Shown in pieces: positions 1,018 to 22,852 of a DNA stretch of 47,544 nucleotides. The stretch covers positions 1 to 47,544 of the IMG/VR virus record IMGVR_UViG_3300009177_000053, one strand, 5' to 3'. Under the pieces are notes generated by a model. That model saw nothing but the letters and a program-made list of their open reading frames with translations, did not search any database and was not told the origin of the DNA. The DNA comes from a virus. Position 1 is the first letter of the stretch, and each line of letters begins with the position of its first letter. A program made the position numbers and the translations under genes.

Positions 1018-2436
1018 TTAGAGGGCGCGGACCTTGGTGGCGTTGGGGAAGCGCTTGGACAGCCTGGTCCGCAGCGCGGCATCCATCGCGAGGCGGGGCG
1101 TGGTGGCCGGCTTCTCCCCAGGCACCGGCTGCGCCTTGAGCAGCGCCGGGTACGCGGAGGGGTGGACGCCATCGATATCCACGCCCAGCTGCTCCAGCGC
1201 GAGGGCATAGATGCTGGCCGCGCTGTCGTGCGCGAGGTCCGGCACCACATCACCGATGTACGGACGGACGGCGGCCTCCGCGATGCGGATGGCCTGGAAT
1301 TCGCCCAGCAGCTCACCGCGCTGCCTCTTGAGCGCCGCGTCCATGGCCGGCTTGTCCATCGGCTTTTCGCCGGGCTTCGGCTCCGGCCCACCGTCCTTAG
1401 CCATGCGGTCCTTGGCCGGCGGGTCCTTGTCCTTGCCCTTCAAATCCTCGGGCTCACCGTCCGCCGCCTTGGGGGCCATCATGGAACATGCCTTGGCATG
1501 GTCCTCATCGGACAGCTTGCCCTTGAGGAATTCGCGGAGCCCTTCGTTGTCCATCGACATCACATCGTCACTGTCGGCGGTGATATCGTCCTGGTCCGGG
1601 TCCCCGTTCTCCAGCGGCCCGAGCTTGTCCAGCAGCTCGATGACGCTATCCAGGTCCGCATCCTGCGCGACGTGAGGCGCGGCCAGGGCGCGGAGGCCGG
1701 CCACCAGCTTGGGCTTGCGGGCGCGGAAATTCTTGCGGTTGATGTCCTTGAGCAGCGGGAACAGGTCCAGCTTGGCATCCGCCGCCACGATCGGCGTGAG
1801 GTGCGAGATAAGGGCGCCGTTGAGCATCAGCGCCGTGCGTGAGGTGAGGGCCGGGGATTTTGCCATCTGGTGAAACTCCGTTTCCGCGTCTTCTACGACT
1901 ACATCCGGGCCAGCTCGACCGGCCTCCACAAGCGCAACGTGATTAGCGCGAATATCGCGCATTATTCCGTCATAGCGCAAGCCATTGTATGTGCCCGGCG
2001 TCATATCCGATTTATATCGATAGGATGCCGACAGCTCGCGCTGCACATCGTTCTCGATACCAGCTATAGCGCTGGGCTTCACGAAAGTGATTGAGGCGTC
2101 CACATAAGGGGGGGTCCAACTGGCATCCGAACCGAGCCAGCCGGCAATATCCGCCTCATCGTAGGTTTCCACGTTGAAGGGGACGTGTTTGTCCAGCACG
2201 GGGCAGCGGTTGAACGTCTGCGCGCCCTTCGCCAGTTCGTCAGGATCGCGGAGCAGATGGTAAATCCGATTGGGCTCTAGCCCCAGCTCCTGCCAGCCGA
2301 TGATTTCATTGCCGCGATAAGGATTGACCGCCGCCTTGGTCACATGGGCGCGCGAAACGTGCAGCTTTCCGTCCGCGTCATAAGTCCGCACGGACTTGTC
2401 AAAAGCGAATTCAACCGTGTTGGGGTCGCGGGGCAT
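1018..2436 (-). CDS. DUF2213 prohead protease fused to a scaffold-like C-terminus
   Basis: A 472-residue head-maturation protein. Residues 1-180 match the DUF2213 phage protease group (herpesvirus-assemblin-like fold). Likely catalytic residues are a Ser in RELSASY (S136 or S138) and His166 in ANHVALVEAGRAG. Residues ~190-472 are charged, Ala/Lys/Glu-rich and low complexity, typical of an internal scaffold. Within this tail, AMDAAL occurs twice (residues 364-369 and 450-455). The AMDA core also lies in the portal-Nudix linker and near the capsid N-terminus, so it may be the protease's own cleavage signal. The gene lies between the MuF and cement genes, as expected for a head operon. The family call is firm; the exact nucleophile is inferred. 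Confidence 0.8.
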   Translation of the reverse strand: MPRDPNTVEFAFDKSVRTYDADGKLHVSRAHVTKAAVNPYRGNEIIGWQELGLEPNRIYHLLRDPDELAKGAQTFNRCPVLDKHVPFNVETYDEADIAGWLGSDASWTPPYVDASITFVKPSAIAGIENDVQRELSASYRYKSDMTPGTYNGLRYDGIMRDIRANHVALVEAGRAGPDVVVEDAETEFHQMAKSPALTSRTALMLNGALISHLTPIVAADAKLDLFPLLKDINRKNFRARKPKLVAGLRALAAPHVAQDADLDSVIELLDKLGPLENGDPDQDDITADSDDVMSMDNEGLREFLKGKLSDEDHAKACSMMAPKAADGEPEDLKGKDKDPPAKDRMAKDGGPEPKPGEKPMDKPAMDAALKRQRGELLGEFQAIRIAEAAVRPYIGDVVPDLAHDSAASIYALALEQLGVDIDGVHPSAYPALLKAQPVPGEKPATTPRLAMDAALRTRLSKRFPNATKVRAL

Positions 2437-2483
2437 GGGGAATCGCTATATCACGAATTCCCGCGCCGGTAAGAGAGCGTTTT

Positions 2484-2519
2484 CGCCGGGCCGGCGGGAG
2501 AAGGGGAACCGGCCCGGCG
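2484..2519. other. Perfect 11-bp intergenic hairpin
   Basis: In the 108-base gap between the MuF and protease-scaffold genes, CGCCGGGCCGG (2484-2494) pairs with CCGGCCCGGCG (2509-2519) across a 14-base loop. Neither strand has a T-run after the stem, so it is not a canonical intrinsic terminator. It could mark an RNA processing or attenuation point between portal-level and scaffold/capsid-level expression. Confidence 0.6.
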
Positions 2520-2544
2520 ATCACGCGCGAAGGGCGCCCGCGCG

Positions 2545-3417
2545 CTAGAACCCAGGAATAACGGATTTCGCGGTGCATCCGCAATTGATCAGCTCGCCCG
2601 GCTGGATGTATTCGCCGCTGATCAAGCAGCCCTGCCGGATATCGAACCTTTTCCCGTGCGCGGCCACATGATCGGGCCGGGGTTGGCGGCCACCGTGAGA
2701 GTGCTGCCAATCCGCCTCAAACAGGCCCAATTCCATCTTGCGGGTCCGCGCCATCGCGGCGGTGGCCTTGTTGTTCTGGTCCCGCGCGATGTTCGCGGCC
2801 CGCCGGTAGGTGATGCCATAGCGGTGCTGCAATTCCTCGGTAATCACCTGGGCGTCACGTCCGGCCTGGATGCCGCGCATGACGATGCCGCGCACATCGC
2901 CCAGGTGCTCACTGGCGATCGACCGAATGAGCCCCACGTTTTCGTCCAGCGTGGCCTGGAAAACATCGGTGCTGGCGCGGGTGGGGTCGAACCGCACGGA
3001 AAAGCCGGCCTCGCGCAGGATCGAGCGCAGCTGACTTTCCGACCGCTCCAGGGCGTTGGTGGCGAACCAGGCGGCCATCCGCGGCGCGGCCTCATCGAAT
3101 CGCTGCTGCCAATACTTCGCGAGCCGGTCCATGATCCTCTTGAGGGCGGAGGCCGGCGCCGCGTCCTCCGCGAGCTGGGCCACGGCGGGTTCATTGGCCC
3201 GGTAGCCGGCGCGGAGGTGCCACACCAGGGACCGCTGCATTTCCTCCACCAGCCGTTCCATCTTGCCCTGATATTTTTCCTTCACGGCGGCATTGGGCTG
3301 GACCGATGAAATCACCTTGTCCTTGCCGCTGGGCATCCGCAGCGGCCCCGAGGTGATGCGCTGCCGCCGTTCCATCGCCTGCCGGCGGGGGCTCACGGGT
3401 CGCGGCATATGATCCAC
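2545..3417 (-). CDS. MuF-type minor head protein
   Basis: A 290-residue minor capsid or portal-associated protein. The C-terminal third has the MuF (phage Mu F-like/SPP1 gp7) pattern: a region around RRAANIARDQNNKATAAM, then ADWQHSHGGRQPRPDHVAAH and a final CGC motif. The N-terminal part is helical and arginine-rich. It follows the portal gene, the standard position for MuF. The longest reading starts at GTG 3417; an in-frame ATG at 3408 is equally possible and neither has a strong ribosome site. The start region overlaps the 24-codon membrane-peptide gene in another frame. It ends with TAG. Confidence 0.85.
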   Translation of the reverse strand: MDHMPRPVSPRRQAMERRQRITSGPLRMPSGKDKVISSVQPNAAVKEKYQGKMERLVEEMQRSLVWHLRAGYRANEPAVAQLAEDAAPASALKRIMDRLAKYWQQRFDEAAPRMAAWFATNALERSESQLRSILREAGFSVRFDPTRASTDVFQATLDENVGLIRSIASEHLGDVRGIVMRGIQAGRDAQVITEELQHRYGITYRRAANIARDQNNKATAAMARTRKMELGLFEADWQHSHGGRQPRPDHVAAHGKRFDIRQGCLISGEYIQPGELINCGCTAKSVIPGF

Positions 3418-3467
3418 ACCACCCAGGCGAATATCACCACGAAGGCGAGAAGTTTAAGCGCCCACAT
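3393..3467 (-). CDS. 24-residue hydrophobic membrane peptide
   Basis: A very short frame reading MWALKLLAFVVIFAWVVWII then CRDP. It is one predicted transmembrane helix with Lys5 near the start and Arg22 after the helix. Its ATG overlaps the portal stop as TGATG, and its 3' end overlaps the start of MuF in another frame, so it is placed for coupled translation. Function is unknown. The composition and coupling argue against chance, but no homologue is recognised. A lysis or inner-membrane role is possible. Confidence 0.45.
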   Translation of the reverse strand: MWALKLLAFVVIFAWVVWIICRDP

Positions 3468-5383
3468 CAGCCAATCCGCAGGGGCCGGACCAGCAGCTCC
3501 AGCGCCGCCGCAAGGCCGGGGTGCAGCGGCTGGGGCGGAGCGTCCACGCTGGCCCAGGCCCATCCCGTGTGCTCATCGTTGAGCTGCGGGATGAACTGGT
3601 CATCCACGGGGTGGATGAATGTGCTGAAATCGACGTTGCCGCCCAGTTGCCGGGTCAGCAGCCGGCGCGAGCCCGGCGGCATAACGCCCACTTCCTCGAT
3701 TGCCTCGCGCGCGGCGGCCCCTTCGGCTTCCTCGCCTTCCTCGATTTTCCCGGCCGGCAGCGCCCAGGTGCCGCCATTGTCGGCATCGGGCCGGCGCTTC
3801 AAGAACAAGACCATATCGCCGGGGGCGATGAACATGGTGCCGGCGGCCATAAGCGCCGCGTCCATGGCGTGCTCACCCTTCGCGGGATCTCCAGCCGGGT
3901 CACCTTCGTTGAGGTTGGGGTCCACCGGCGGGGGCGGCAGGTCATCGGGGTTGATACCGTGGTACATCGAATTTTCATCGTTCGCGATGCGGCGCCGGCT
4001 GTCCTCCGGATCGAGCACGCCTTTATCGATGAGCACGGCGTCCGTGTCTGCCTTGGTCTTTTCGACCGAGGCGCGGCCCGCGTCATCCAGCTGCCACAGC
4101 GGGTTCCACGAAAACCCTATGTCCTCATCGATATCCCCCCATTCGTTGAGCTGGATGAGGTCCATGCAGGTTTTCAGCAGGGGGCTGACGAACTGCTCCT
4201 GTTGCGCCGCGATCCAGTCATAGAACGCCCGGATTTCGCCATCGCTGGAGGCGTTGAGGCCGCTGGGCGTGATGCCGAACAGCACCACCAGGGGAATGCC
4301 CGTGACGGCGGCCATGTGCTCCTGTGATTGTGCCTGGAGCTTGTCCAGCGATGCCAGCGGGGTGGCGACGGTGAAATATTCCTCAGTGTCCTTGTCCAGC
4401 AGGAAAAGGCCGCCGTTGTCGCGCATCTGGTTATAGAATTCCACGCGCTCGCGCAGCAGCTGCGAGGCCCCAGGCGACGTGAGGTCATCCATGCGGGTTT
4501 TGAGCCCGTTGGTGGCGAACGAATGGATGAGGTCCGAAACGGATTGCCGCGTCCGCAGCCAATTATCCACGTAAGGCTTGGACAGCTGGGTGAGCGAGAG
4601 GCCGCCGAACATATAGGCCGGCTTGAGGATGTCCGGCACCTCGCGGGAAACCATGGTGAGCAACCGCGATCGGTGGACCCTACGCGACTGCACCCACCAC
4701 GTCCGGGGGATAAAGAAATCCTCCGCCAGCGGGTTGTCAGAATTGTACTGGTCCGGGTAGGTCCAAAACGGCTCAATCACCTTGAACCCCTTGAGCCGGC
4801 CCTTGCCGAGCTTCCGCCGGTCCATGATCAAGGGCGTGGTCAGCTCATGAGGGTTGCCGTTGTCCCCCGTGTCGATCGACAGATTAGAGCGGCCAAACCA
4901 GCCATCCAGCTCAATCATTTTGGTGAACTTCGCCTTGAGCTTGTAACGCTCAATCAGCTCCACCATCCGCTGGACCTTGGGGGACTTGTCGCGTTCGCTG
5001 GTGGCGCTGACCGTCACCCACTTCCGCGTCATGTTCTTTGCCAGGATTTCGGACGGGCGCCGGTACTCAGGCCGGAGTGCCAGCTCCGCCAGCCACGCAT
5101 AGCCCATGAAGCCTTGGCCTTCGCCCCAGGCATACTGATTGGCCCACTCATACACCGGGGTTAGGGCCTCATCGTGGGCCAGCTTCACCTCATCGTTCGC
5201 CACCCCAGGCGGCAGCGGCGGCATGACGAACGGGGATTGCCCGCGCTCGCCCAGGCCGATGCGCTTCTGTCCGCGCGCCCAGCCGATGAGGTTGGCCGGC
5301 AGCTTGATGGGGAGCTGGGGAGGGGGCACCACTTCCGGCACCACGGTGGGAACGCGATTGCGATTGAAAAGCCGTCCGAACAT
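3467..5383 (-). CDS. DUF1073-type portal protein fused to a Nudix hydrolase
   Basis: A 638-residue fusion. Residues 1 to about 480 are a portal of the DUF1073 (gp6-like) group, forming the ring through which DNA is packaged and head joins tail. A Pro/Asp-rich linker (~480-505) leads to AMDAAL (506-511) and then a Nudix domain to the C-terminus. The Nudix box is complete at 545-567: GKIEEGE, seven residues, then REAIEEVGV. It therefore looks catalytically competent on a nucleoside diphosphate linked to another moiety. Related DUF1073 portals in databases are often labelled anti-CBASS Acb1 family, suggesting that this portal family carries cargo domains at its C-terminus. The start overlaps the terminase stop by one base (TGATG). 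Portal identity and Nudix box are secure; substrate is unknown. Confidence 0.88.
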   Translation of the reverse strand: MFGRLFNRNRVPTVVPEVVPPPQLPIKLPANLIGWARGQKRIGLGERGQSPFVMPPLPPGVANDEVKLAHDEALTPVYEWANQYAWGEGQGFMGYAWLAELALRPEYRRPSEILAKNMTRKWVTVSATSERDKSPKVQRMVELIERYKLKAKFTKMIELDGWFGRSNLSIDTGDNGNPHELTTPLIMDRRKLGKGRLKGFKVIEPFWTYPDQYNSDNPLAEDFFIPRTWWVQSRRVHRSRLLTMVSREVPDILKPAYMFGGLSLTQLSKPYVDNWLRTRQSVSDLIHSFATNGLKTRMDDLTSPGASQLLRERVEFYNQMRDNGGLFLLDKDTEEYFTVATPLASLDKLQAQSQEHMAAVTGIPLVVLFGITPSGLNASSDGEIRAFYDWIAAQQEQFVSPLLKTCMDLIQLNEWGDIDEDIGFSWNPLWQLDDAGRASVEKTKADTDAVLIDKGVLDPEDSRRRIANDENSMYHGINPDDLPPPPVDPNLNEGDPAGDPAKGEHAMDAALMAAGTMFIAPGDMVLFLKRRPDADNGGTWALPAGKIEEGEEAEGAAAREAIEEVGVMPPGSRRLLTRQLGGNVDFSTFIHPVDDQFIPQLNDEHTGWAWASVDAPPQPLHPGLAAALELLVRPLRIG

Positions 5384-6996
5384 CAGCGCCGCCCCGCTCC
5401 TGTTACCGCCCAGGTCCGCAAGCTGGCCGGGACAGCAATGGGCTTACCGCTGGTCCCGGAGAATTCAATCATAACCGCGTCGGCAAGGTTAGGCGACTTG
5501 GTTCCCTCGGGCGTCTTGTTGATCACGATCTTTCCCACGCCGTTGGTCTGATAGGTGGGCTGGGACAGCTCGCCCAGCAGCCTTTCCCGTAGCGGCAATT
5601 CGGACGGGATGGAAATCAATTCGTCCGGGTCATAGTGCTCGCCATTCACCGCCTTATGCGTGTGCTCAAAGCGGGTCCGCAGCTTCCACCATGCTTGCGC
5701 CTTCCGGTTCTGGAAATAGTCCTTGTTTTTGCGGCCCTTCACGTCCTCCGCCTCGGGCCGCTCAACGCCGGCAGAACCGCGAAACAGCGTGACGCCAATA
5801 ACCCGGCGCCGGGCCGCCTGCCGCTGGTCATTGATCACGCGGGCATCGCCGCGGACGCCAGCGCCCAGGCCATCGCCATCGGCGGTGAGGGTTTCATATT
5901 CCCCATCGTCGCACAGCTCGAGCGCCCGCCTGGTTGTCTCAAAGATATCCCCGCCGCTGCCGCTCCATTCCTCCAGGCTTTCCAGCAGGATGCCGTGGCG
6001 GCCACAGAACGCATTAAGGTCCGGCCCCTCATCGGCCACGTCCAGGCTGGCCGATCGGCGCCCGGTGATGGTGATTCCCAGCTTCTTGTGAGCGTCGATC
6101 GCGGAGCGCACCCAGGCACCGGGGATCACGATGCCGCGCACGGACGCGGTGTAATCCATATCGATTTCCTGGGCCAGGACCACCGCGTCCAGCTCCGCCT
6201 TCTTTTTCGCGTACCACGCCTCATCCTTGCGGGGGTCATCGCGCCAGCCGAACGAAAACACTTTGACGCGACCGCTCCAGCGCTTTTGCGCGAAGGGGTT
6301 GCCCATGCCGTTCACGCTGGAGAAATCCACGCGGCAATTGGTGGTGGCGGACAGCGCGGCCTCCGCCAGCATGGGGTGCTCCAGGTGCGCGGCCTCATCC
6401 ACGAAATAGATTGAGGTTCGATCGCCGCGCCCGATGTTATCGCCCACCTCGCCCGAAATGGACGCATGGGTGTCCGGGAAGATCAGCCGCTTTTGCGGAG
6501 CGTGCCGGCTTTCATCCCAGCCGCCGCGCAGCTCGCGGGGCAGGTTGCGGAGGAAGAACCGCCCTTTCCAGAACAGGCTTTTGGGCTCCGCCGGCTTATC
6601 AACGTATTCCTCTTTGCGGGAGCCGAACCCGGCGCGGAAACTGTCATAGTGGAGGGCGAGGGTGCAGGCGAGGCCCATGGCAAGCCAGCTGGCCCCCACC
6701 TCGCGGGTTTTCTCGGTTATCGAGGCTTCGGCCAGCCGCCACCGATCGAGCACGAATTGCACCCATTCCCGTTGCTTGGGGAACAGCACGAACGGCAGCA
6801 CCGGCGGGATGCCCGTGCCCACGTTGAGGGGGTTGTACGTCATCCCCCAATCGTTGATGAAATCCGCCGGGTTGAGCCGGTAATAGGCTTTCACCTGGGC
6901 CAGTTTTTCGGGGTTGGACCGCAACCAGGCGAGGCGGCGACGGCGGCCAGCGTAGACCGCCTCATAGTCCGGGTTCTTGAAGTCGAATTCGGCCAT
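5383..6996 (-). CDS. terL: Terminase large subunit (packaging ATPase-nuclease)
   Basis: A 537-residue DNA packaging motor. The ATPase domain has a Walker A-like KTREVGAS (residues 96-103), as in terminases that lack the classical GKT, and a Walker B strand SIYFVDE (195-201). The C-terminal nuclease has its first aspartate in SLDVADEG (D319) and a second acidic cluster in TADGDGLGAG (~371-380). Length is typical. It directly precedes the portal gene with a one-base overlap. TerS is unusually far upstream, at 13389-13778, separated by about 6 kb of accessory genes. Confidence 0.93.
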   Translation of the reverse strand: MAEFDFKNPDYEAVYAGRRRRLAWLRSNPEKLAQVKAYYRLNPADFINDWGMTYNPLNVGTGIPPVLPFVLFPKQREWVQFVLDRWRLAEASITEKTREVGASWLAMGLACTLALHYDSFRAGFGSRKEEYVDKPAEPKSLFWKGRFFLRNLPRELRGGWDESRHAPQKRLIFPDTHASISGEVGDNIGRGDRTSIYFVDEAAHLEHPMLAEAALSATTNCRVDFSSVNGMGNPFAQKRWSGRVKVFSFGWRDDPRKDEAWYAKKKAELDAVVLAQEIDMDYTASVRGIVIPGAWVRSAIDAHKKLGITITGRRSASLDVADEGPDLNAFCGRHGILLESLEEWSGSGGDIFETTRRALELCDDGEYETLTADGDGLGAGVRGDARVINDQRQAARRRVIGVTLFRGSAGVERPEAEDVKGRKNKDYFQNRKAQAWWKLRTRFEHTHKAVNGEHYDPDELISIPSELPLRERLLGELSQPTYQTNGVGKIVINKTPEGTKSPNLADAVMIEFSGTSGKPIAVPASLRTWAVTGAGRR

Positions 6997-7008
6997 GTGC
7001 GAGGGATA

Positions 7009-7668
7009 TCAGGCGGCACGCCTTGGCGAAAGCATGTCCATTTGCCGGCTGGCAGCGTCGATCAGCGGGATTGTCTGCGCGTACCGCGTACCGCTGCTGC
7101 CGTCGATCGACCAGGCGCCGGCCCCTGCCGCCATCCAGATACGCCGGCGGGTGTTGGCGCGAGCAACGTGATAATGGATGGCCTGGGCGCGGGGCTGGCC
7201 CGTTTCCGGATCGAGCGCGCAGAAATCGCCCCAATAGCGCATCCGCTCCACCTTCCATTCGGTCGATCCACCCAGGAAGATGCCCACCGATGGCCCCACG
7301 AAGGGCGCGAGGTCCGCCGCTTCCATGCCATCCTGTACCGCGATGAGCACCATAGGCACCACCGCAAGGCAGCGGTTGAGGTAGCGCAGGGACAGGGCCA
7401 GAGACGGCAGGCCGGCGGCCACGATGTCCGGCAGCACAAGCCAATCCGGGGCGGTGGGCTGGGCCTCTATCCACGCCAGAAACCGCTCAAAGGCTTCCTC
7501 ATCGAACGGACGTTGGGCGAGGAAATCGGACCAGGCCCCATTATCGGCGGCCCACGGGAACCCCTCGGTACGCCACACCCCGGCCCGGCTGATGAGTAGA
7601 CGCCATCCGCGGCGGCGCATGGCGGCCAGATTGCGCCGCGTGCCCGTCCGGCTGGCATAGACAATCAC
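7009..7668 (-). CDS. DpdA-like (TGT-fold) DNA transglycosylase candidate
   Basis: A 219-residue protein starting at GTG 7668, which overlaps the preceding stop as GTGA and has GGAGG ten bases upstream. It resembles the phage DpdA/TGT-like family, which exchanges guanine in DNA for a 7-deazaguanine base. Visible conserved blocks are GTRRNLAAMRRRGWRLL, ADNGAW with Asp42, LVLPDIVAAG with Asp81, VGIFLGGSTEWK (~128-139), a HVARANTRRRI block and IDGSSGTRYA. It is shorter than well-studied DpdA proteins (about 400 residues), so it may be a compact subfamily. No queuosine or preQ0 synthesis genes are visible, so a precursor would have to come from the host. The neighbouring Mom-like gene supports a DNA-modification role. 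Confidence 0.6.
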   Translation of the reverse strand: MIVYASRTGTRRNLAAMRRRGWRLLISRAGVWRTEGFPWAADNGAWSDFLAQRPFDEEAFERFLAWIEAQPTAPDWLVLPDIVAAGLPSLALSLRYLNRCLAVVPMVLIAVQDGMEAADLAPFVGPSVGIFLGGSTEWKVERMRYWGDFCALDPETGQPRAQAIHYHVARANTRRRIWMAAGAGAWSIDGSSGTRYAQTIPLIDAASRQMDMLSPRRAA

Positions 7669-8138
7669 GGCGGGAACGCCTCCAGAATCACCAGCTTGTT
7701 CCACTTGGTGATGCCGCATTTTCGCCAGCCGGCCAGCTGGAAACAATAGCCTGGGTTCGTGCTGCGGACCTTGCTGGCGTTGACGTAGGTGTAGAGCCGT
7801 TCCCCCGGCCACCGTGCCCAGGCGAGAGCCATGGCATCCAGGATGAGGTCCGACGATCGCCCGGCGCCGGTGTTGCGGAATACCGCACAGTTCACCCCTT
7901 GCTGGCCGTCCCCGCTGATGAATTTCCGCCATACGAACAGGGCGCGGGCGCAGGGGGTGAGCAGCACCATTTTCTGGCCCGGCCCGACAAATAGCCCAGG
8001 GTCGCGGCCATCGGCATAAGGCTTGTGGCTGTAGTGCTGGCGGAAGATGGACAGGGCCGTGGGGTTGCCGTCCCGCGTCTCAATCCAGGTCGCGCCAGTG
8101 AGGTCCAGCTGCGGCTGGGCGGCCAGCGCGCGGGGCAT
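7665..8138 (-). CDS. Mom-like GNAT-fold protein, putative DNA modification acyltransferase
   Basis: A 157-residue protein with a layout like phage Mu Mom and related GNAT proteins: an N-terminal FRQHYSHK (His-Tyr at 35-36), a central GVNCAVFRNTG, a helix after SSDLILDAMALAWARWPG, and a C-terminal RLYTYVN strand followed by NPGYCFQLAGW. Mom converts adenine in DNA to a carbamoylmethyl derivative. The present assignment rests on pattern resemblance and the HY pair, so it is tentative. It is coupled on both sides: TGATG with the gene above and GTGA with the DpdA-like gene below. That close pairing suggests both act on phage DNA. Confidence 0.5.
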   Translation of the reverse strand: MPRALAAQPQLDLTGATWIETRDGNPTALSIFRQHYSHKPYADGRDPGLFVGPGQKMVLLTPCARALFVWRKFISGDGQQGVNCAVFRNTGAGRSSDLILDAMALAWARWPGERLYTYVNASKVRSTNPGYCFQLAGWRKCGITKWNKLVILEAFPP

Positions 8139-8353
8139 CAGCGGGTTTCAAAGGTGCGGGCGCCGTCGATCAGCCGCGCGGCCAGCTCGCGAGCTTCCTG
8201 GGGGTGCATTTCCAGGGTGAACCGCGATTCCCCAGGCTTGCGCAGGGTGAGCGACATGCAGCGGTCCAGGCACTTCACCGAGACAATGGGCTCATCCCCG
8301 TTGACGCGGGCGAACAGGTCGCGCGCTTGATCCGGGATAGGCGGGGCATTCAC
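8138..8353 (-). CDS. Hypothetical 71-residue protein
   Basis: Acidic-to-neutral small protein beginning MNAPPIPDQARDLFARVNGD. The segment SLTLRKPGESRFTLEM suggests a beta hairpin followed by an amphipathic helix (QEARELAARLIDGARTF). Its stop overlaps the Mom-like ATG (TGATG) and its start overlaps the preceding gene by four bases, so it sits inside the coupled modification cassette. No family is recognised. It could be a small partner of the Mom-like/DpdA-like pair, but only position supports that. Confidence 0.6.
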   Translation of the reverse strand: MNAPPIPDQARDLFARVNGDEPIVSVKCLDRCMSLTLRKPGESRFTLEMHPQEARELAARLIDGARTFETR

Positions 8354-8637
8354 GGCAGCTTCCCCGTGCCATGGCGGAAATTGAATTTCAGCCGCCAGCG
8401 TTCGGTTGGATCGGCCACCAGCTGGTCAATGATGGCATCGGCGGCGGCGATCGGCATCGCCACGGTGGCCGGCGCTGCCTGGGCGCGGATCATGGCGTGT
8501 TTCATCGCCTCGATATCCTGGGCGATTCGGGCGGCCGGCAGCTGCGCCCACATGGACGTCATCGTGCCGGTGCTGGTGGGGTGGGACGCGATCACGCCAG
8601 TGAGCTGCCGGCGCGCGCGGGACAGCGGCGGGCTCAC
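8350..8637 (-). CDS. Hypothetical 95-residue protein
   Basis: Starts at GTG 8637, overlapping the preceding stop as GTGA. The protein is mostly alpha-helical and Ala/Met-rich in the middle (IAQDIEAMKHAMIRAQAAPA), with a basic end containing WRLKFNFRHGTGKLP. No family is recognised. It is part of the run of small overlapping genes between the two terminase subunits. Confidence 0.55.
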   Translation of the reverse strand: MSPPLSRARRQLTGVIASHPTSTGTMTSMWAQLPAARIAQDIEAMKHAMIRAQAAPATVAMPIAAADAIIDQLVADPTERWRLKFNFRHGTGKLP

Positions 8638-8834
8638 CGCCGGGCCTCAGACTTGAGGCGCCGGACGTGCTTGCGATAGCCGCGCGATGGCCGGAGGATT
8701 CCCGGCGCGAACCATGCCCATGCGCGCGGGATGCCTACGCGGGCCGCCAGCGCACGCCGCAGGCGTTCGGCATGAGGCATGAACAGCTCACCGGACACGC
8801 GGGCGGTGATGATTCGCTGGGTAGTGATTTTCAA
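8634..8834 (-). CDS. Small arginine-rich hypothetical protein
   Basis: A strongly basic protein ending RGYRKHVRRLKSEARR, likely nucleic-acid binding by composition. Two starts are possible. TTG 8834 overlaps the preceding stop (TTGA) and gives 66 residues. ATG 8780 follows GGTGAG at six bases and gives 48 residues (MPHAERLRRALAARVGIPRA onward). The coordinates given use TTG. Function is unknown. Confidence 0.5.
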   Translation of the reverse strand: MKITTQRIITARVSGELFMPHAERLRRALAARVGIPRAWAWFAPGILRPSRGYRKHVRRLKSEARR

Positions 8835-9238
8835 TGCCTGGGCATCCCAGGGTGGGGCAGGTGGCCGGCGCGGACATGCCCGTCCATATCGCACGCGAGC
8901 TGGATAGCCATGCCCTGGAAATTGGCATAGGGCATCTGTGCCATGGCGATGGGATCCCCGCGTTCGTCCAGCAGGGTGAGGTTGACGCTGCCGTGGATGC
9001 ACACGGTGGCGTCCATCACATGGGCGTGCGGGACATCAGCCTGGTCCTGGGTTTCGCAGGCTTCGCTGCGCTGCCGCTGGATGAGCCCCAGGTCTTTCAG
9101 CTTGCGGATGATAGACGCCTCCACAACCATGATGCGGTTGCCGAGACTGAGGCAAATGGCGGGCTCAGATTTCGCGCCATCGTTGATGAGATTGATTATT
9201 TCCTGCTCAACTTCCGTGAGCGGTGCCGGGGTATTCAT
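8831..9238 (-). CDS. Hypothetical protein with possible N-terminal winged-helix
   Basis: A 135-residue protein. The N-terminal 55 residues (TEVEQEIINLINDGAKSEPA ... IIRKLKDLGLIQRQR) have the helix spacing and recognition-helix look of a winged helix-turn-helix. The rest is beta-rich. Start and stop both overlap neighbours (ATGA at 9238). It may be a small regulator inside the accessory block, but no family can be named with certainty. Confidence 0.55.
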   Translation of the reverse strand: MNTPAPLTEVEQEIINLINDGAKSEPAICLSLGNRIMVVEASIIRKLKDLGLIQRQRSEACETQDQADVPHAHVMDATVCIHGSVNLTLLDERGDPIAMAQMPYANFQGMAIQLACDMDGHVRAGHLPHPGMPRH

Positions 9239-9477
9239 CGGGCTAAGTCCTCCTGTGTGGGCACGGGTTCTGTGATGACTTCATAGGCGGGACAGCGCGT
9301 GCATCGCCGCTCGCCTCGCCAGCCTTTCAGCCGGCCACGGTGGTCCGTCACCTTGAAGGCGTGGACCACTTCCCAGGCATGGGGTTTCGGACGGCGGAGC
9401 TGCTGCCGCACCCATAGCACCGCGAACGCGATGATGGACACGGCGATGCCGAAATAGAGCCAATCATGATCACTCAT
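9235..9477 (-). CDS. Single-pass membrane protein, unknown
   Basis: An 80-residue protein. MSDHDWLYFGIAVSIIAFAV followed by LWV forms one N-terminal transmembrane segment, then a basic RQQLRRPKPH stretch that should stay in the cytoplasm. A CTRCPAYE element lies near the end. It overlaps its neighbours by four and eight bases. Function is unknown. Confidence 0.55.
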   Translation of the reverse strand: MSDHDWLYFGIAVSIIAFAVLWVRQQLRRPKPHAWEVVHAFKVTDHRGRLKGWRGERRCTRCPAYEVITEPVPTQEDLAR

Positions 9478-9652
9478 CGTCCTCCGGTCCTTTGACCGAG
9501 AATGTGCCGGCGCGAAAGGATGGGTTGTCCACCTTCTTGAGCTCCGCCAGCCGATCGGCAGCGGCCTCGCGGGTGGGGAACCCTTTGAACGATGGCCCTA
9601 AGTCCACCTCATTCCCCACCCGGTTCGTGAATGCTACGCGGTACAAGTTCAC
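9470..9652 (-). CDS. Hypothetical 60-residue protein
   Basis: Reads MNLYRVAFTNRVGNEVDLGP with an acidic end GPEDDE. The GTG start at 9652 overlaps the upstream stop (GTGA). TTG two codons later has AAAGG six bases ahead and could also be used. It looks like a small alpha-beta protein with an amphipathic helix around TREAAADRLAELKKV. No family is recognised. Confidence 0.55.
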   Translation of the reverse strand: MNLYRVAFTNRVGNEVDLGPSFKGFPTREAAADRLAELKKVDNPSFRAGTFSVKGPEDDE

Positions 9653-9855
9653 CCTTTCGACTTGCGGCGGGACGCGGGCTTGTCATCGGCGCCGGGCTCA
9701 TCCGCCGGCTGCTGCGCGGCCTCCAGCTCGCCATCCAGGCGGGTGATTTCCGCGTGCATCCATGCCGTGTCCGCCGGCTCGATATCCCAGCCGTTGGCGA
9801 CGTGCTGGCCGATGCGGGCGAGGCGTTCGGCGCGTTCTGTCTTTTCCGTGGTCAT
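9649..9855 (-). CDS. Hypothetical 68-residue coiled protein
   Basis: Starts MTTEKTERAERLARIGQHVA; the helix ITRLDGELEAAQQ is followed by a disordered Pro/Asp tail and a basic ending SRRKSKG. ATG 9855 has GGAG eight bases upstream. An in-frame ATG at 9921 overlaps the preceding stop (ATGA) and would add 22 residues across the hairpin at 9875-9897. The shorter form is preferred because the hairpin suggests non-coding sequence. Function is unknown. Confidence 0.5.
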   Translation of the reverse strand: MTTEKTERAERLARIGQHVANGWDIEPADTAWMHAEITRLDGELEAAQQPADEPGADDKPASRRKSKG

Positions 9856-9874
9856 AGCGTTTTCTCCGGTTGCG

Positions 9875-9897
9875 GGGAGGGGCACGATACCCCTCCC
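9875..9897. other. 8-bp G/C hairpin before the 68-residue gene
   Basis: GGGAGGGG (9875-9882) pairs with CCCCTCCC (9890-9897) around a 7-base loop, just upstream of the ribosome site of the gene starting at 9855. There is no T-run on either strand, so a translational or RNA-stability role is more likely than termination. Confidence 0.5.
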
Positions 9898-9917
9898 GCC
9901 GAGTGAGCGCACGGGGC

Positions 9918-11252
9918 TCATGTGCAGTTCCCCGGCCTGACATCCTCCAGCGCCCGCGAGCGGACCAGCAACTCCATCGCCTCCAGGAAGGCCACCACCT
10001 CGGGCGGCGGGTTCGTGAGGTTGCGGGGTTCCATCAGCTTGTCCAGCCACCGCCAGTATTCCAGCGATGCCGTGAGGGCGCCGGCCTCCGCCGCGGATAG
10101 GGTAGAGGGGCGCCGGGGCAGCGGTTCATCCGGCACAGGGATGCGGTATTCCTCGCCATTGCGCCGTTCGATGGTGAACAGCCGCCCGAGGCCATCGCGA
10201 TGGATAGGAGCCGGGAATTCCGCCGCCGGCACGCCATAGTCATCCGCCAGCGATTCCTGACGGTCGAACGCCCCCACGCCCAGGCCATAGAACTGCTCTA
10301 CAGGCTGGCCGGGCTCGCGGCCACGGACGCGCGTATCATGCTGATGCTGCCAGCGGGGCAGCGTGGCCTGGATGCGGTTGCGGAATGCCCAATCGCTTTC
10401 CCCCTTTGCGCGCGGTGGCTTGACGCCCAGCCGATCGGCCAAGGCATCCAGCTCCGCACCTCCAGCGGTAAAGAAGTTTTCCAGGCCGGTTCTGACAACC
10501 ACCGTGGCCGGCGCGGGGTCCGCATGGTCGCCAATCTCCACCGCGTCGATTTCATCACACGCCCAGCGGGCGAGGGTTGAAGGGTTGATGAACCACCTAT
10601 CACGCGCAGGCCGAAGGATGCCCATGCGCTTCAAGCAGCGGATCACGCGGGGCTCAATGTCCTGCGGTTCGTGGCTGTGCTTTTCCAGCGCCTCAATGCG
10701 GCTGCGCAATCCGTTTAAGTCGGCTTCATCACCCGCGACCGCGCCTTCCAGTCCTCCCAGGCTTTCGTGGAGCGCTGTGTTGGCTTCCAGAATGCCCACG
10801 ATTTCGGTGGTCATGTCCTTTTCGGACGCCTCCAGCTTGCCCAGGCGGCGGACGTTATCCACCTGGGCGTGCTCCAGCTGGTTCACCCGCGCTTCAATGC
10901 TGCCGATCGGCGGCGGACCATCCACCATACCCAGCAGGCTGTTGAGCAGCCGCTTGCCCTGCCTATAGGTGTCCTGAGAAATGAAATCGAAAGACACGCC
11001 GGCATAGTCGCGCCAGCTTTGCGTTTCCCCATCGAATTCGCCCAGCCTTTCCTCCACCAGCTCGCGGTGGGGCTCGAACAGCGTAACCAGCGCGGCGAAC
11101 AGCTGCCCGGTGATGTTCTTGCGCGGGATGCTGGACGTGCCCAGCGCCTCCGCGATCGACAGCGAGGGGTTGGCGCTGCCGTCCCCGTCCACGATCAGGT
11201 CATAATTCCACGCCAGAAAGTCCTCCAGCGTGAGGCCCGGTAAACTGCTCAT
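9918..11252 (-). CDS. 444-residue coiled-coil protein of unknown function
   Basis: The largest accessory protein between TerS and TerL. Residues 1-110 are globular. Residues ~115-200 form a long coiled coil with heptad-like repeats (ARVNQLEHAQVDNVRRLGKL, LNGLRSRIEALEKH). Then come a helical segment VIRCLKRMGILRPARDRWF and a region DRLGVKPPRAKGESDWAFRN that recalls sequences in phage baseplate proteins. The C-terminus is Pro/Leu-rich and helical. Its ATG directly follows the stop of the acyl-carrier-like gene (TGAATG), so the two are probably co-expressed. No enzymatic motif is seen. It could be a minor virion protein or a scaffold for the accessory enzymes. Confidence 0.6.
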   Translation of the reverse strand: MSSLPGLTLEDFLAWNYDLIVDGDGSANPSLSIAEALGTSSIPRKNITGQLFAALVTLFEPHRELVEERLGEFDGETQSWRDYAGVSFDFISQDTYRQGKRLLNSLLGMVDGPPPIGSIEARVNQLEHAQVDNVRRLGKLEASEKDMTTEIVGILEANTALHESLGGLEGAVAGDEADLNGLRSRIEALEKHSHEPQDIEPRVIRCLKRMGILRPARDRWFINPSTLARWACDEIDAVEIGDHADPAPATVVVRTGLENFFTAGGAELDALADRLGVKPPRAKGESDWAFRNRIQATLPRWQHQHDTRVRGREPGQPVEQFYGLGVGAFDRQESLADDYGVPAAEFPAPIHRDGLGRLFTIERRNGEEYRIPVPDEPLPRRPSTLSAAEAGALTASLEYWRWLDKLMEPRNLTNPPPEVVAFLEAMELLVRSRALEDVRPGNCT

Positions 11253-11498
11253 TCAAACCCCCATCTTTTCGTCCAGGCGGGCGAGGATTTCGCCCACGGT
11301 CATGTTCGCGGACAACGCCAGCACATCGTCCTCCAGCTCAAAGGCTTCCTCAAAGCGGATTTCCAGGTCCACGATGTCCAGCGAGTCCCCCTCAATCTCG
11401 GGGGCATTGAACGCCGTGGTATCGTCCGCCTGGGCGAGGGGCCGGCCAATCACCTCCACGATGATTTCCCGCGCCCGATCTTCCTGGGCCGGGCTCAT
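11253..11498 (-). CDS. Acyl carrier protein-like protein
   Basis: An 81-residue acidic helical protein. The pattern EGDSLDIVDLEIRFEEAFEL carries the DSLD motif whose serine takes 4'-phosphopantetheine in acyl carrier proteins. It continues with ALSANMTVGEILARLDEK, matching the third and fourth helices of the fold. Size is normal for an ACP. ATG 11498 overlaps the preceding stop as ATGA; an upstream in-frame GTG at 11507 is less likely. A host holo-ACP synthase would be needed for activation. No fatty-acid or polyketide enzyme is nearby, but a GNAT-like protein lies downstream. The fold and motif are clear; the acyl group and partner are unknown. Confidence 0.75.
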   Translation of the reverse strand: MSPAQEDRAREIIVEVIGRPLAQADDTTAFNAPEIEGDSLDIVDLEIRFEEAFELEDDVLALSANMTVGEILARLDEKMGV

Positions 11499-13330: not shown

Positions 13331-13392
13331 TTGGCCGCCTCTTTTCTGGCCTGCAAAGCCTCCGCCATGCTGTTGAAAGGACCGGCCATCAT
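13327..13392 (-). CDS. 21-residue coupled peptide
   Basis: Reads MMAGPFNSMAEALQARKEAA and a final Lys. The ATG at 13392 overlaps the TerS stop (ATGA) and its TGA overlaps the next ATG. The perfect stop-start chaining on both sides is the main support; it looks like a short amphipathic helix. Confidence 0.4.
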   Translation of the reverse strand: MMAGPFNSMAEALQARKEAAK

Positions 13393-13778
13393 CCATCGCC
13401 CAGCATCTCCCTGTAAGCCTTCTCATTTTCCTTCGGATCGCCCGCATCCCGCGTGGCTATCGGGGCATCCTGGTCCCCGGACAGCTCCAGCTTGTCTTTC
13501 TGGCCCAGCATCTGCTTGCCCAGCCATATCTGCATGGTGGCGTTGCCGCTCATGGCCCCGTGCCATTGGGCGCGGCGGAGAGTGGCGCGGCCCGTCGCGC
13601 GGCCACGATCCACGGCGGCCTGGATATCGGGGTCCTTGGCCCGCCGGTCCTTGAGGGTGCTTTCCGCCACACCGCACACGGCGGCCATTTCCGCGTCCGT
13701 GCAGCCGATCGCGGCAGCGGCCTCCAGGGTCCTGAGATTGATTTCCGCCAAGGGGCGCCCGCCCTTCTCCGTTGTCAC
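13389..13778 (-). CDS. terS: Terminase small subunit
   Basis: A 129-residue DNA-recognition subunit for packaging. It has an N-terminal helix-turn-helix (LAEINLRTLEAAAAIGCTDA, AAVCGVAESTLKDRR) followed by the conserved block ATLRRAQWHGAMSGNATMQI then WLGKQMLGQKDK, characteristic of phage TerS-like proteins. The GTG start at 13778 overlaps the SLOG gene stop (GTGA). It is separated from TerL by about 6.4 kb of accessory genes, an unusual arrangement. A transcriptional-regulator annotation is sometimes used for this family, but the C-terminal block favours TerS. Confidence 0.8.
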   Translation of the reverse strand: MTTEKGGRPLAEINLRTLEAAAAIGCTDAEMAAVCGVAESTLKDRRAKDPDIQAAVDRGRATGRATLRRAQWHGAMSGNATMQIWLGKQMLGQKDKLELSGDQDAPIATRDAGDPKENEKAYREMLGDG

Positions 13779-14143
13779 CTGAGTATCACCGGCTTTTGCG
13801 CGGCGATGGCGCGGCGGATTGTGTCCTCCGTTCCACCCTCGCGACTGGATGCCACGAAGGCTATCACCATGTCCACGTCATCCACCACAACCTGGTTTCG
13901 TTCGTGCATCCGCCGGGCGGCCATGCCGCGCGACTTCACACCCTCCAGGTTGGGCTTATGGACCGTGGTGGCGAGGCCCCGAGCTGCGGCCCGTTCGATC
14001 GCCCAGGTATCGACGCCACGGCATCCGCCGGACACCACGCGCACGCCGGGCGGGATGCTGTCCACCACCGCCTCAATGAACGCCCTGTCTGTACGCTGGC
14101 GCGAGCCCACAACGGCTACCGCACCAATATTCCGGAAATCCAT
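13775..14143 (-). CDS. SLOG-family (YspA/DprA-like Rossmann) protein
   Basis: A 122-residue compact Rossmannoid starting MDFRNIGAVAVVGSRQRTDR. The first strand-loop VAVVGSR, the second VRVVSGGCRGVDTWAIERAA and a late GGTEDTIRRA match the SLOG superfamily, whose members bind or process nucleotides and NAD-related ligands. ATG 14143 has GGGGG upstream and overlaps the preceding phosphoribosyltransferase gene by 28 bases. The coupled PRTase partner suggests nucleotide or base-ribose chemistry, in phage metabolism or counter-defence. The superfamily call is good; the ligand is unknown. Confidence 0.75.
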   Translation of the reverse strand: MDFRNIGAVAVVGSRQRTDRAFIEAVVDSIPPGVRVVSGGCRGVDTWAIERAAARGLATTVHKPNLEGVKSRGMAARRMHERNQVVVDDVDMVIAFVASSREGGTEDTIRRAIAAQKPVILR

Positions 14144-14805
14144 GCAACCCCCATTGCGTTGACACCGCGAGCGCGCAGGCCGCCCACGGCTTCCTCCATA
14201 TGCCACCCCGAGGTGGCGACATCATCAACCACCACATGCAACCGCCCCAAGATCGGCTCCGCCACGAATTCCAGTGCCGGAGTGTTGAGTGCCTGCTTGG
14301 GGTGACTGCCGCCCGATAGGAAACGATCGGCATAGACCTGGAGGAAGTCCCACCCCAGGCCGCCGGCCACGCGCTGGGCCAGCATCTTGCCGAAACAGTC
14401 CACCCGCTTGCTGTGGCCGCACGCGACATTGACCACCACCGCGCCGGCATCGCCGCATAGCTTCCGCACCACCTCCGCGACTTCCACCGCCGCAGGATCG
14501 AGCACGGCAGGGTCCAGCCGGTGCTTGGCCGATTTCAGCGCCGATATGTCCGCCTTGCGGGAATGCGCTGCCCAGGCACGCGGAGAGAACCAGGCCACCC
14601 CATTGCGCGAGTAGAGCGCGGGCCGCCACACGATCGCCCCCAGCGGTGAGCCGGCGGTGGGGGCCGCCCATGTGTGGTCCGGGAATACCAGCTCAATGTC
14701 CGGGGAGGCGAAACCGGCCAGCAGCTGGTCCAGCTCCGCAGGGGCATATCCAACCCGCGCGCTTTTCTCGGGGCCGGAAACGGTGAGTGGTGTTTTGCTG
14801 GTCAT
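14116..14805 (-). CDS. Phosphoribosyltransferase-fold protein
   Basis: A 229-residue protein with a type I PRTase signature near its C-terminus: LHVVVDDVATSGWHMEEAV, in which the paired acidic residues and TSG loop bind PRPP. A loop ADRFLSGGSHPKQ lies about 30 residues earlier, in the position of the flexible/PPi loop. The N-terminal ~90 residues (WAAPTAGSPLGAIVWRPALY region) are a variable hood that should select the base. It resembles ComF/orotate-type PRTases only in the core. It overlaps the SLOG gene and has a long structured leader. It could salvage a base or attach ribose-phosphate in a modification or NAD pathway; the substrate cannot be read from sequence. Confidence 0.75.
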   Translation of the reverse strand: MTSKTPLTVSGPEKSARVGYAPAELDQLLAGFASPDIELVFPDHTWAAPTAGSPLGAIVWRPALYSRNGVAWFSPRAWAAHSRKADISALKSAKHRLDPAVLDPAAVEVAEVVRKLCGDAGAVVVNVACGHSKRVDCFGKMLAQRVAGGLGWDFLQVYADRFLSGGSHPKQALNTPALEFVAEPILGRLHVVVDDVATSGWHMEEAVGGLRARGVNAMGVAWISGILVR

Positions 14806-16751: not shown

Positions 16752-16820
16752 TTACACCTCCAATGGCCCAGGTTGAGGATTGCGCCGCCGGGTGGGCTGG
16801 GCCGGCGGTGTCGGGGTCAT
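16752..16820 (-). CDS. 22-residue Pro/Arg-rich peptide
   Basis: Reads MTPTPPAQPTRRRNPQPGPL then EV. Its ATG overlaps the adenine methyltransferase stop (ATGA) and its TAA directly abuts the next GTG, whose ribosome site lies inside it. It may be a true peptide or a coupling leader that delivers ribosomes to the next gene. Confidence 0.35.
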   Translation of the reverse strand: MTPTPPAQPTRRRNPQPGPLEV

Positions 16821-17689
16821 GTGCCCAGCAGCTCCTGCTGCCGCGGACGGCTTAGGGCCGCCCAGGCACGGGGATTGATCCATAGGACTTCGGTGCGAGG
16901 CCGCGCGCCGTCCGCGAGCGCTTCCCGCTCGATCCGGTGCCAGCCGGCCAGGGCGCCGTCATAGAGCGCGGAGGGATAGCCGGATATCACCACCATGCCC
17001 TTGAGGGTGACCACGAACGCCAGCAGCTGGGCGTGGTCATCCATCGTCATTTCATGGCGGTAAGCGTGGTAGCGCATCCCCGATCGACGGGTTTTCTGTG
17101 ACCGCGTGGCCGGCAGGTAAGGCGGATCGACGTAGTGGAGCGTCTTTTCCGCGTCCTGCATCGCCATGATTTCGATGGCGTTGCGATTCTCGATAACCAC
17201 CCCGCGCAGCCGATCGATGATGAGGCGGAGCGCATCGGGATAGGTCACCCAATCGTGGGCCGGGGTGCTGCCCGCCTTGTTGGCGTTGGCGCGGAACCCG
17301 GTGCGTACCTCGCGGTTGAACCCGTCCGAACCGAACCCCATGAACGAACGGACGATGAGCTGCCGCGCCGCTTCGATTGGGTCTGCGCAATCCAGGTAGG
17401 ACTGCTCAAATTCATCGCGGGCGAACGGCGTCAGCTCCAGCCGCTGGACCAGCTGCGCGCTGGACACGGGATCCCTGAGAACGCGGAACAGGTTGACCAC
17501 ATCCGCGTCCAAGTCGTTGTAGACTTCGGCATATGACCGCCCCTTGCGGATGAGCACCGAGGCCGCGCCGCCGAACGGCTCGACATAGACGCGGTGGGGC
17601 GGCAGGTGCTGGATGATCCACGGGGCCAGCATCCATTTCCCGCCGTGATAGCGCAGCACGGGCCGCCTGGGCGCCTGGTCCTTGCTCAC
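16817..17689 (-). CDS. D12-class N6-adenine DNA methyltransferase (Dam-like)
   Basis: A 290-residue SAM-dependent enzyme. The SAM-binding LRYHGGKWMLAPW (~12-24) and the EPFGGAASVLIRK block (about 37-49) are typical of the D12 class. The catalytic DPPY is at 188-191. Length matches Dam-like enzymes. The likely product is N6-methyladenine, perhaps in GATC, but the recognition sequence cannot be read. The GTG start at 17689 overlaps the preceding stop (GTGA). It forms one of three methyltransferases here and may protect phage DNA from restriction. Confidence 0.92.
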   Translation of the reverse strand: MSKDQAPRRPVLRYHGGKWMLAPWIIQHLPPHRVYVEPFGGAASVLIRKGRSYAEVYNDLDADVVNLFRVLRDPVSSAQLVQRLELTPFARDEFEQSYLDCADPIEAARQLIVRSFMGFGSDGFNREVRTGFRANANKAGSTPAHDWVTYPDALRLIIDRLRGVVIENRNAIEIMAMQDAEKTLHYVDPPYLPATRSQKTRRSGMRYHAYRHEMTMDDHAQLLAFVVTLKGMVVISGYPSALYDGALAGWHRIEREALADGARPRTEVLWINPRAWAALSRPRQQELLGT

Positions 17690-18153: not shown

Positions 18154-18834
18154 TCATGCCGCCAATGGTAAGGGGGTTTCGTCCCAATCCGTGGGACGTT
18201 CGAGCAGCCGCCTTGCGTTGAAGGGGATGCGGATTATCCGTTCATTGTCGATCGCGCCGGGGTCCTCAAAGTCCCATACGAACCACGCATAAGCCGTGGC
18301 GGATTTCGCCTTGCGCGATACCCGGCCCTTGACCATGGCGAGCCGACCGATGAACGGGCAGATATACGAACAGGGATACTGCCGGAAAAATTTCTCGCGC
18401 GGCTGGGTTTCCATCCATTGCAGCCGGCAAAGCAGGGCAACGCCCTTGCGGGCCTGGGCCATGGCCTCAACCGCGAAATCCATCGCCCGGTTGAAGGGCG
18501 GATTGGTGATGATCCAATCCGGATGAGCTGGAGGCCGCCAGCCACCAAGCAACGGGGTTTGCAGGAAGTCCCCCATCTCCCCAAAGCCATAGGGGAAGAT
18601 ATCGGAACCGTGGACCACGCCGAAATCATCGCGTAGCGCGCGGACCATATGCCCCTGCCCGCACGCGGGGTCCCATGCCGTAAGATAGGCCAGCGCAGCC
18701 CGAGGCCGGCGGGGCGCGAGGATGAACCGACTTAGGGCGCGGGTGCCCCATAGCGGGGTGGGGAAAAAGTCCAGCGAATCGGGTGGCTCGATCCGGCGGG
18801 CGCCGACAGCAGCGGAGACATGGTAGCCGGTCAC
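18154..18834 (-). CDS. SAM-dependent N6-adenine methyltransferase (NPPF type)
   Basis: A 226-residue protein. AWDPACGQGHMVRAL is the SAM-binding motif I and DWIITNPPFNRAMDFA holds the catalytic NPPF of N6-adenine or related amino methyltransferases. The start of the protein (EPPDSLDFFPTPLWGT) is the common FFPTP entry of phage methyltransferases. No separate recognition domain is evident, so specificity is unknown. GTG 18834 overlaps the preceding stop. It is transcribed with the Dam-like enzyme. Confidence 0.85.
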   Translation of the reverse strand: MTGYHVSAAVGARRIEPPDSLDFFPTPLWGTRALSRFILAPRRPRAALAYLTAWDPACGQGHMVRALRDDFGVVHGSDIFPYGFGEMGDFLQTPLLGGWRPPAHPDWIITNPPFNRAMDFAVEAMAQARKGVALLCRLQWMETQPREKFFRQYPCSYICPFIGRLAMVKGRVSRKAKSATAYAWFVWDFEDPGAIDNERIIRIPFNARRLLERPTDWDETPLPLAA

Positions 18835-21003: not shown

Positions 21004-21339
21004 GTGCCCTGCGCGCAATGCCCGTGGCGGATGGACTTGCCGACCGGGGTTTTCCCAGCCCAGGCATTCCGAATCTCCGCGCCCACCGCCTATGATGCGG
21101 CCACGGAAATGTTCGCCTGCCATATGACGGGATCTCGCAAACCGACAACCTGCGCGGGGTTTCTGCTCGCGAATTCAGCGAACAATATCGCCGCGCGCAT
21201 AGCCCAAATGTTCCACCTGGACATGCGGCTGGTTAGTTCGCCCTATCCGCTTTACCCGAGCTATCGGGCCATGGCGATTGCCAACGGCGTTGCGGCGGAT
21301 GATCCAGCCCTTGCACTCTGTAGAGCTGACGACGAATGA
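21004..21339 (+). CDS. DUF6283-like protein, possibly 5'-frameshifted
   Basis: The frame contains PCAQCPWRMDLPTG, MFACHMTGSRKPTTCAGFLL and a helix NIAARIAQMFH, matching the DUF6283 pattern of conserved cysteines and histidine. Homologue-like residues continue upstream of the only available start, GTG 21004 (HAVIQFEGGPSNYCK in frame), back to a stop at 20917 with no initiator. An ATG at 20913 (MVKRGRITNRRR) lies in the frame one base off. A single-base shift at 20940-20960 would fuse both into a normal gene. Function is unknown; zinc binding is likely. Confidence 0.55.
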   Translation: MPCAQCPWRMDLPTGVFPAQAFRISAPTAYDAATEMFACHMTGSRKPTTCAGFLLANSANNIAARIAQMFHLDMRLVSSPYPLYPSYRAMAIANGVAADDPALALCRADDE

Positions 21340-22637: not shown

Positions 22638-22852
22638 TTCCCGAAGGGGTGGCGGCCCTGTTCGCGCTGCATGACGAAACCGAACGCCGCGCCCAGGCAT
22701 GGGTGCGCGAATATCGAGCTGCGCACCCCGGAGCCCAGCCGGCGGCGGCCATGCGTGCGGCAGGCTTCCCCGTGGGCAATGGGGCCAAGCTGGGATGGGA
22801 CGATGTGGTGACCGCCTGGGGCCGGCGCTGGTTAGCGGGGAGTCGCGCCTAA
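22631..22852 (+). CDS. Hypothetical 73-residue protein
   Basis: Reads MVIPEGVAALFALHDETERR and ends GWDDVVTAWGRRWLAGSRA. It overlaps the methyltransferase end by seven bases. It looks helical and could contain a helix-turn-helix-like AAMRAAGFPVGNG segment. Its 3' end overlaps the leftward membrane-peptide gene by 21 bases. Confidence 0.5.
   Translation: MVIPEGVAALFALHDETERRAQAWVREYRAAHPGAQPAAAMRAAGFPVGNGAKLGWDDVVTAWGRRWLAGSRA

Follow-up and report, generated by a model that had tools for sequence, protein, structure and literature searches.

The window analysed here is a whole virus record of 47,544 bases (IMGVR_UViG_3300009177_000053), all coordinates being window positions, and we consider the genes that lie between its two terminase genes, TerS and TerL. 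These genes form a leftward run from TerS to TerL, with accessory genes inside an interval of 6,384 nucleotides (nt; ~6.4 kb), among them a Mom-like and a DpdA-like gene. A preliminary description had placed these two genes, an acyl carrier protein (ACP), a 444-residue protein and a string of small proteins between the terminase subunits, all leftward, and this layout is confirmed by the open reading frames (ORFs) and the family matches, as follows from the upstream to the downstream border:

13389 to 13778, minus strand: TerS (terminase small subunit), upstream border; phrog_309, E 6.3e-13
11253 to 11498 (or to 11507), minus strand: ACP; PF00550 (PP-binding), 22.7 bits against a cutoff of 20.8, recovered again in a whole-record search
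9918 to 11252, minus strand: orphan ORF of 444 residues with a coiled-coil-like middle; a codon score favours coding, this ORF being one of the 9 on which the score was trained
8138 to 9855, minus strand: small ORFs at 8138-8353, 8350-8637, 8831-9238, 9235-9477, 9470-9652 and 9649-9855
7665 to 8138, minus strand: Mom-like GNAT-fold protein of 157 residues; phrog_24928, 4.7e-24
7009 to 7668, minus strand: DpdA-like protein of 219 residues with a tRNA-guanine transglycosylase (TGT) fold and a GTG start; phrog_15826, 4.4e-32
5383 to 6996, minus strand: TerL (terminase large subunit), downstream border; 61% identical to that of locus L102, and matching phage records annotated as terminase large subunit

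The start of the DpdA-like gene was corrected from the long-ORF start at 7932 to the GTG at 7668, because residue 89 of the longer ORF is the first that the phrog match covers and the codon-usage caller chooses 7668. The corrected start overlaps the stop of the Mom-like gene by 4 nt, and the gene ends 12 nt before TerL. The genes had also been described as one overlapping run whose stop-start coupling implies a functional unit. The leftward direction stands, but the unbroken overlap does not, since a 193-nt gap (8637 to 8831) appears with a crude gene caller, one that omits or shortens some small ORFs of the interval. Moreover, overlap is found in 27 of the 69 adjacent same-strand gene pairs of the window, TerL and portal among them; coupling is therefore general in this phage and is no mark of a functional unit. 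Between 5000 and 14900, no sigma-70-like promoter was detected, against a mean of 1.7 after shuffling, so that the run is not set off by the absence of promoters. A PADLOC search returned no match for the interval proteins submitted.

Comparison with TerL relatives, for which the best 80 loci of the scan were retained (as in each of our scans), shows that the accessory genes are inserted. Indeed, TerS and TerL touch or overlap, judged by ORF bounds, in 31 of the 39 other records in which both were detected, and no gap exceeds 1,249 nt, as compared to 6,384 nt in the window (a TerS was recognised in L026 and in 38 of the 80 TerL loci, the remaining loci being fragments or having a diverged TerS). 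The structural genes of the window are common to these relatives (e.g., L102 and L117), and none of the 80 has a member of the Mom-like or DpdA-like families (hereafter Mom and DpdA genes) between TerS and TerL. The A2/A1 models found neither family anywhere in the 80 TerL loci, while with more permissive iterated profiles L176 yielded a single divergent DpdA-like ORF, located 5 kb upstream of its TerS. In contig 3300025924_000060, the same TerL family lies at 5631-7214 and a DpdA-like gene at ~22141-22743 (~15 kb from TerL); in L064, L066 and L067, a Mom gene stands directly before TerL. Judged from gene content among relatives, the TerS-TerL interval is a hypervariable accessory site.

The Mom-like protein falls in phrog_24928, a family annotated as of unknown function, all 33 scanned members of which match, and one pattern scan of IMG/VR counted 315 stretches that encode a relative. 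Its AlphaFold model (pLDDT 89) has a GNAT fold, and the best PDB match by Foldseek is a GNAT acetyltransferase. Mom of phage Mu places an N6-carbamoylmethyl-type modification on adenine. In a MAFFT alignment, Mu H58/Y59, which we take to be an active-site pair, correspond to H35/Y36 of the window, conserved as H in 131 and as Y in 126 of 143 distinct relatives (11 gaps each). Mu D149 (241-residue numbering), presumably the acidic residue, aligns with N120, a position occupied by D in 33 of the 143. Mu S124 corresponds to S96, a serine in 136 of the 143 (7 gaps), and the title of PDB entry 8bv8 describes S124A of Mu Mom as inactivating. The VIA-align comparison with 8bv8 gave Z 12.2 over 131 aligned residues (root-mean-square deviation 3.3), which puts Mu Mom among the best structural matches, tied with other GNATs. 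The window protein thus shares with Mu Mom the GNAT fold and, where the two align, a conserved HY pair and serine, and differs from it in its shorter length and in N120. As a side observation, the ORF immediately upstream of Mom and TerL in L064 (830-1303) appears by eye to be another GNAT.

For the DpdA-like protein, hhalign matched gp54 of mycobacteriophage StevieRay ('DpdA-like tRNA-guanine transglycosylase') at 99.4% with E 6.9e-22, and the top Foldseek matches of its model (pLDDT 84) are TGT (E 6.7e-4, probability 1.00). Residues D42, D81, Q112, G133 and D189, which by motif order may match the TGT catalytic residues, are conserved in 77, 80, 79, 80 and 79 of 80 distinct relatives, respectively. 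Searched with the DpdA profile, the PDB sequences gave no match, and in a Pfam scan of the family 2 of 20 members matched TGT, and then only at E 0.18. The available part of Hutinet 2019 (PMC6884629) reports phages with a singleton DpdA, i.e., without QueC/QueD; the window gene resembles StevieRay gp54 and these singletons in length class (~215 residues) and in the absence of QueC/QueD from the window, and it differs in being part of the packaging operon and in overlapping a Mom-like gene. DpdA-like relatives also occur in 162 plasmid records, 146 of them from Pseudomonas. As an example, a DpdA-like gene of Pseudomonas plasmid pND6-1 (L197, region 2839-6470) lies ~2.3 kb from a gene with a ParB N-terminal domain.

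The proposal that the Mom-like and DpdA-like proteins have a role in DNA modification is thus borne out as far as folds, motifs and family matches go, and both are probable DNA-modifying enzymes. We favour, at a probability of about 0.6, the reading that they are two separate late anti-restriction DNA-modification genes forming an overlapping pair in a hypervariable site of the packaging operon. The target of the Mom-like GNAT would be adenine in the phage DNA, and the DpdA-like transglycosylase would replace guanine with a 7-deazaguanine, probably drawn from the host preQ0/preQ1 pool; as the window lacks QueC and QueD, any 7-deazaguanine would be host-derived. Late expression, alongside the terminase, would mean that the DNA is marked shortly before it is packaged and that the toxicity linked to an early start of expression does not arise, while the ACP, the 444-residue protein and the small ORFs would be other passengers of the site. 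The late placement of the pair fits the toxicity and the silence in lysogens that the available part of PMC12707154 reports for Mu Mom.

How far the two genes travel together was assessed on 74 distinct DpdA genes and 138 distinct Mom genes besides the window, with 3 kb or more of flank on each side for 83 Mom and 55 DpdA genes, window included. Within flanks, Mom was found near three of the 74 DpdA genes (L267, L285 and L307) and DpdA near two of the 138 Mom genes (L035 and L050), the ACP being near one distinct gene of each kind. Searches of 20 whole DpdA records found no Mom, and those of 50 whole Mom records found DpdA in two (the other Mom records, out of 80, were searched for DpdA within flanks). 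The two genes therefore occur mostly apart. Nevertheless, independence predicts ~0.008 co-occurrences per set, where three (DpdA set) and two (Mom set) were seen, and even with 30-fold undercounting P remains ~0.002 and ~0.03, respectively, these base rates being taken from pattern-scan counts, which undercount, and host group not being controlled for. Much like the window pair, a divergent Mom-like gene and the DpdA-like gene of L267 (6489-7621) overlap by ATGA; they lie after a large ORF that by eye looks like a helicase-methyltransferase. Since the linkage exceeds independence and the ATGA pair recurs in L267, we read the Mom-DpdA association as real but optional, and it could stem either from a function in common or from a tendency of anti-restriction genes to cluster.

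A further case, L035 (3519-6627), holds Mom-like, QueD, QueC and short DpdA-like genes in one run, the DpdA-like gene overlapping QueC and following QueD. As in the preQ0-type phage modification (QueD-QueC-DpdA), this locus unites a short DpdA-like gene with QueC and QueD, the Mom-like gene being 2 kb off, whereas the window lacks QueC and QueD. L035 is a natural candidate for dual modification. Such cases invite the view that the Mom-like and DpdA-like genes, without the ACP, make up a dual hypermodification unit acting, for example, on each of the two purines or in sequence on a single base; the 4-nt overlap in the window and its counterpart in L267, the five other contigs with both genes within ~3 kb, the excess over expectation in the 74 DpdA loci and the QueC and QueD of L035 all agree with it. 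However, in more than 95% of loci the flanks contain just one of the two genes, the whole-record counts are as low as given above, and anti-restriction clustering together with shared host groups would also increase linkage, so that we consider a dual unit unlikely.

Returning to the reading of two separate anti-restriction genes, several results weigh against it. That linkage is above chance suggests that the two genes are more than independent passengers and have some role in common. Sequence homology to Mu Mom is not significant against the single Mu sequence (hhalign 0.5%, hidden Markov model E 0.014), and generic GNATs score as high as Mu Mom with the model in VIA-align; because that profile comparison is not significant, the Mom identity rests on the fold and the aligned residues, and the protein is called Mom-like, not Mom. 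On the DpdA side, the VIA-align score with TGT (Z 14.3) is tied with TIM-barrel epimerases, hhalign against E. coli Tgt alone is not significant, QueC and QueD were not found in the window, and Orion, a DpdA-only phage, had no detectable 7-deazaguanine in the available part of PMC6884629. Because of Orion, DNA modification by the DpdA-like protein is something that we infer.

These last points bear on a further possibility, namely that the DpdA-like protein acts on tRNA or on protein and that only the Mom-like protein (and the methyltransferases) modify the genome. Its short form, the missing preQ0 genes and the unmodified DNA of Orion fit such an activity, and among the structural matches is Cap10 (9ntn, Z 13.8), a TGT-like CBASS protein solved with NDG-modified CdnD. 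Set against this are the related short DpdA-like gene of L035, tied to QueC and QueD, and the existence of plasmid copies, including the one near a ParB-domain gene. On balance, a target other than DNA seems to us rather improbable.

The ACP is a credible member of its family, with a DSL motif that includes the attachment serine and a PP-binding domain above the Pfam cutoff, but there is no good evidence that ties it to Mom or DpdA. A single-sequence search of viral contigs and phages found no relative of the window ACP. PF00550 exceeded its cutoff in 1 of the 69 other Mom records searched whole (19 + 50, of 80), i.e., in L047, with one weak sub-cutoff match besides, and in none of 13 DpdA and 17 TerL records; a local ACP profile was also run on the flanks of the loci. 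In L047 (region 5965-6849; L358 is the same locus), the ACP (6601-6849) is the next gene after Mom, and in L244 (region 2171-4530), the local profile places an ACP at 2171-2419, 1.5 kb upstream of DpdA. With 293 ACPs in 50,697 phage records as the base rate, the two local cases in ~212 loci do not clearly stand out (P between 0.03 and 0.35, depending on the assumptions). In addition, the Erythrobacter phages R6L and ZS04 resemble the window in that each genome combines an ACP with a DpdA-like gene of 43% identity (~8.5 kb apart in R6L); they differ in that the two genes do not lie in a terminase interval, and the other interval genes had no relative in the record parts compared. Phage ACPs are known, their function being unclear according to the available part of the R6L paper (PMC5463345).

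The other interval genes are still more isolated, since those other than Mom and DpdA had no match in 198 loci. The 444-residue protein had no relatives in viral or genome contig collections, and a weak match to a Helicobacter coiled-coil protein in the phage search (24%) was taken as compositional. The small ORFs had no relatives in the loci examined. A hand-picked pair of ~60-residue proteins, from 9470-9652 of the window and 3534-3731 of L244 (33% over 51 residues, E 3e-4, 1 of 2,000 shuffles), is no more than a lead, as a profile search does not support the similarity and, among 42,635 ORFs, it is outscored by at least 12 others.

These observations bear on the cassette proposed in the preliminary description, in which a carrier protein feeds base modification. 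In the form weighed here, the ACP would load an acyl group, the Mom-like GNAT would move it to DNA, and the 444-residue and small proteins would be helpers. The ACP neighbours in L047 and L244 and the joint presence of DpdA-like and ACP genes in R6L and ZS04 are what speaks for it. Weighed with the rarity of ACPs in Mom, DpdA and TerL records, the base rate, the lack of a phosphopantetheinyl transferase (ACP synthase) in all 6 records searched and the orphan state of the 444-residue and small genes, it finds little support, and we regard it as very improbable. Its boldest form is just as far-fetched: acyl-ACP, not a free CoA thioester, would be the donor for the Mom-like GNAT, possibly onto a base installed by DpdA, and the ACPs of L047, L244, R6L and ZS04 would be dispersed relics of this link. 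If true, the carrier-protein idea would mean a new donor chemistry for DNA. Nor does the set behave as a single cassette, since it varies independently between relatives: in the loci examined, Mom and DpdA come without the ACP, the 444-residue gene and the small genes, save for one ACP each, and the TerL relatives lack them. Comparison of relatives thus goes against the whole block and leaves a Mom-DpdA pair that is rarely linked, but above independent base rates. We found no publication on a Mom-DpdA gene pair or on ACP-fed DNA modification, which is weak evidence, as subscription journals lay mostly outside the search.

Outside the interval, the window carries three DNA methyltransferase genes:

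16817 to 17689, minus strand: DNA methyltransferase
18154 to 18834, minus strand: DNA methyltransferase
21336 to 22637, plus strand: DNA methyltransferase

Their presence suggests a broad anti-restriction repertoire. Methyltransferases often adjoin Mom genes elsewhere, 7 of the 25 neighbour families listed being named DNA methyltransferase (the scans covered 111 of 134 Mom-neighbour and 37 of 39 DpdA-neighbour proteins, one neighbour set coming from a crude ORF choice). Just upstream of TerS, a phosphoribosyltransferase-like gene (14116-14805, minus strand) lies beside a DprA/SLOG-like gene (13775-14206, minus strand; PADLOC PsyrA 1.3e-6, ShosA 3.5e-5), and this pair (13775-14805) resembles a phage-borne toxin-antitoxin of PsyrTA/ShosTA type. 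Note also that the portal protein (3467-5383, minus strand) has a C-terminal NUDIX hydrolase domain at residues 514-626 (phrog_1198, 2.1e-15).

Altogether, the Mom-like gene and the DpdA-like gene each give the impression of a mobile protective gene, at times paired with the other, and their overlapping arrangement recurs, in the window and in L267. The widespread 'unknown' phage family phrog_24928 gains a structural assignment as Mom-like, and phrog_15826 is connected to the DpdA-like transglycosylases. Should DNA be the target of both enzymes, two hypermodified purines would be expected in such phages.

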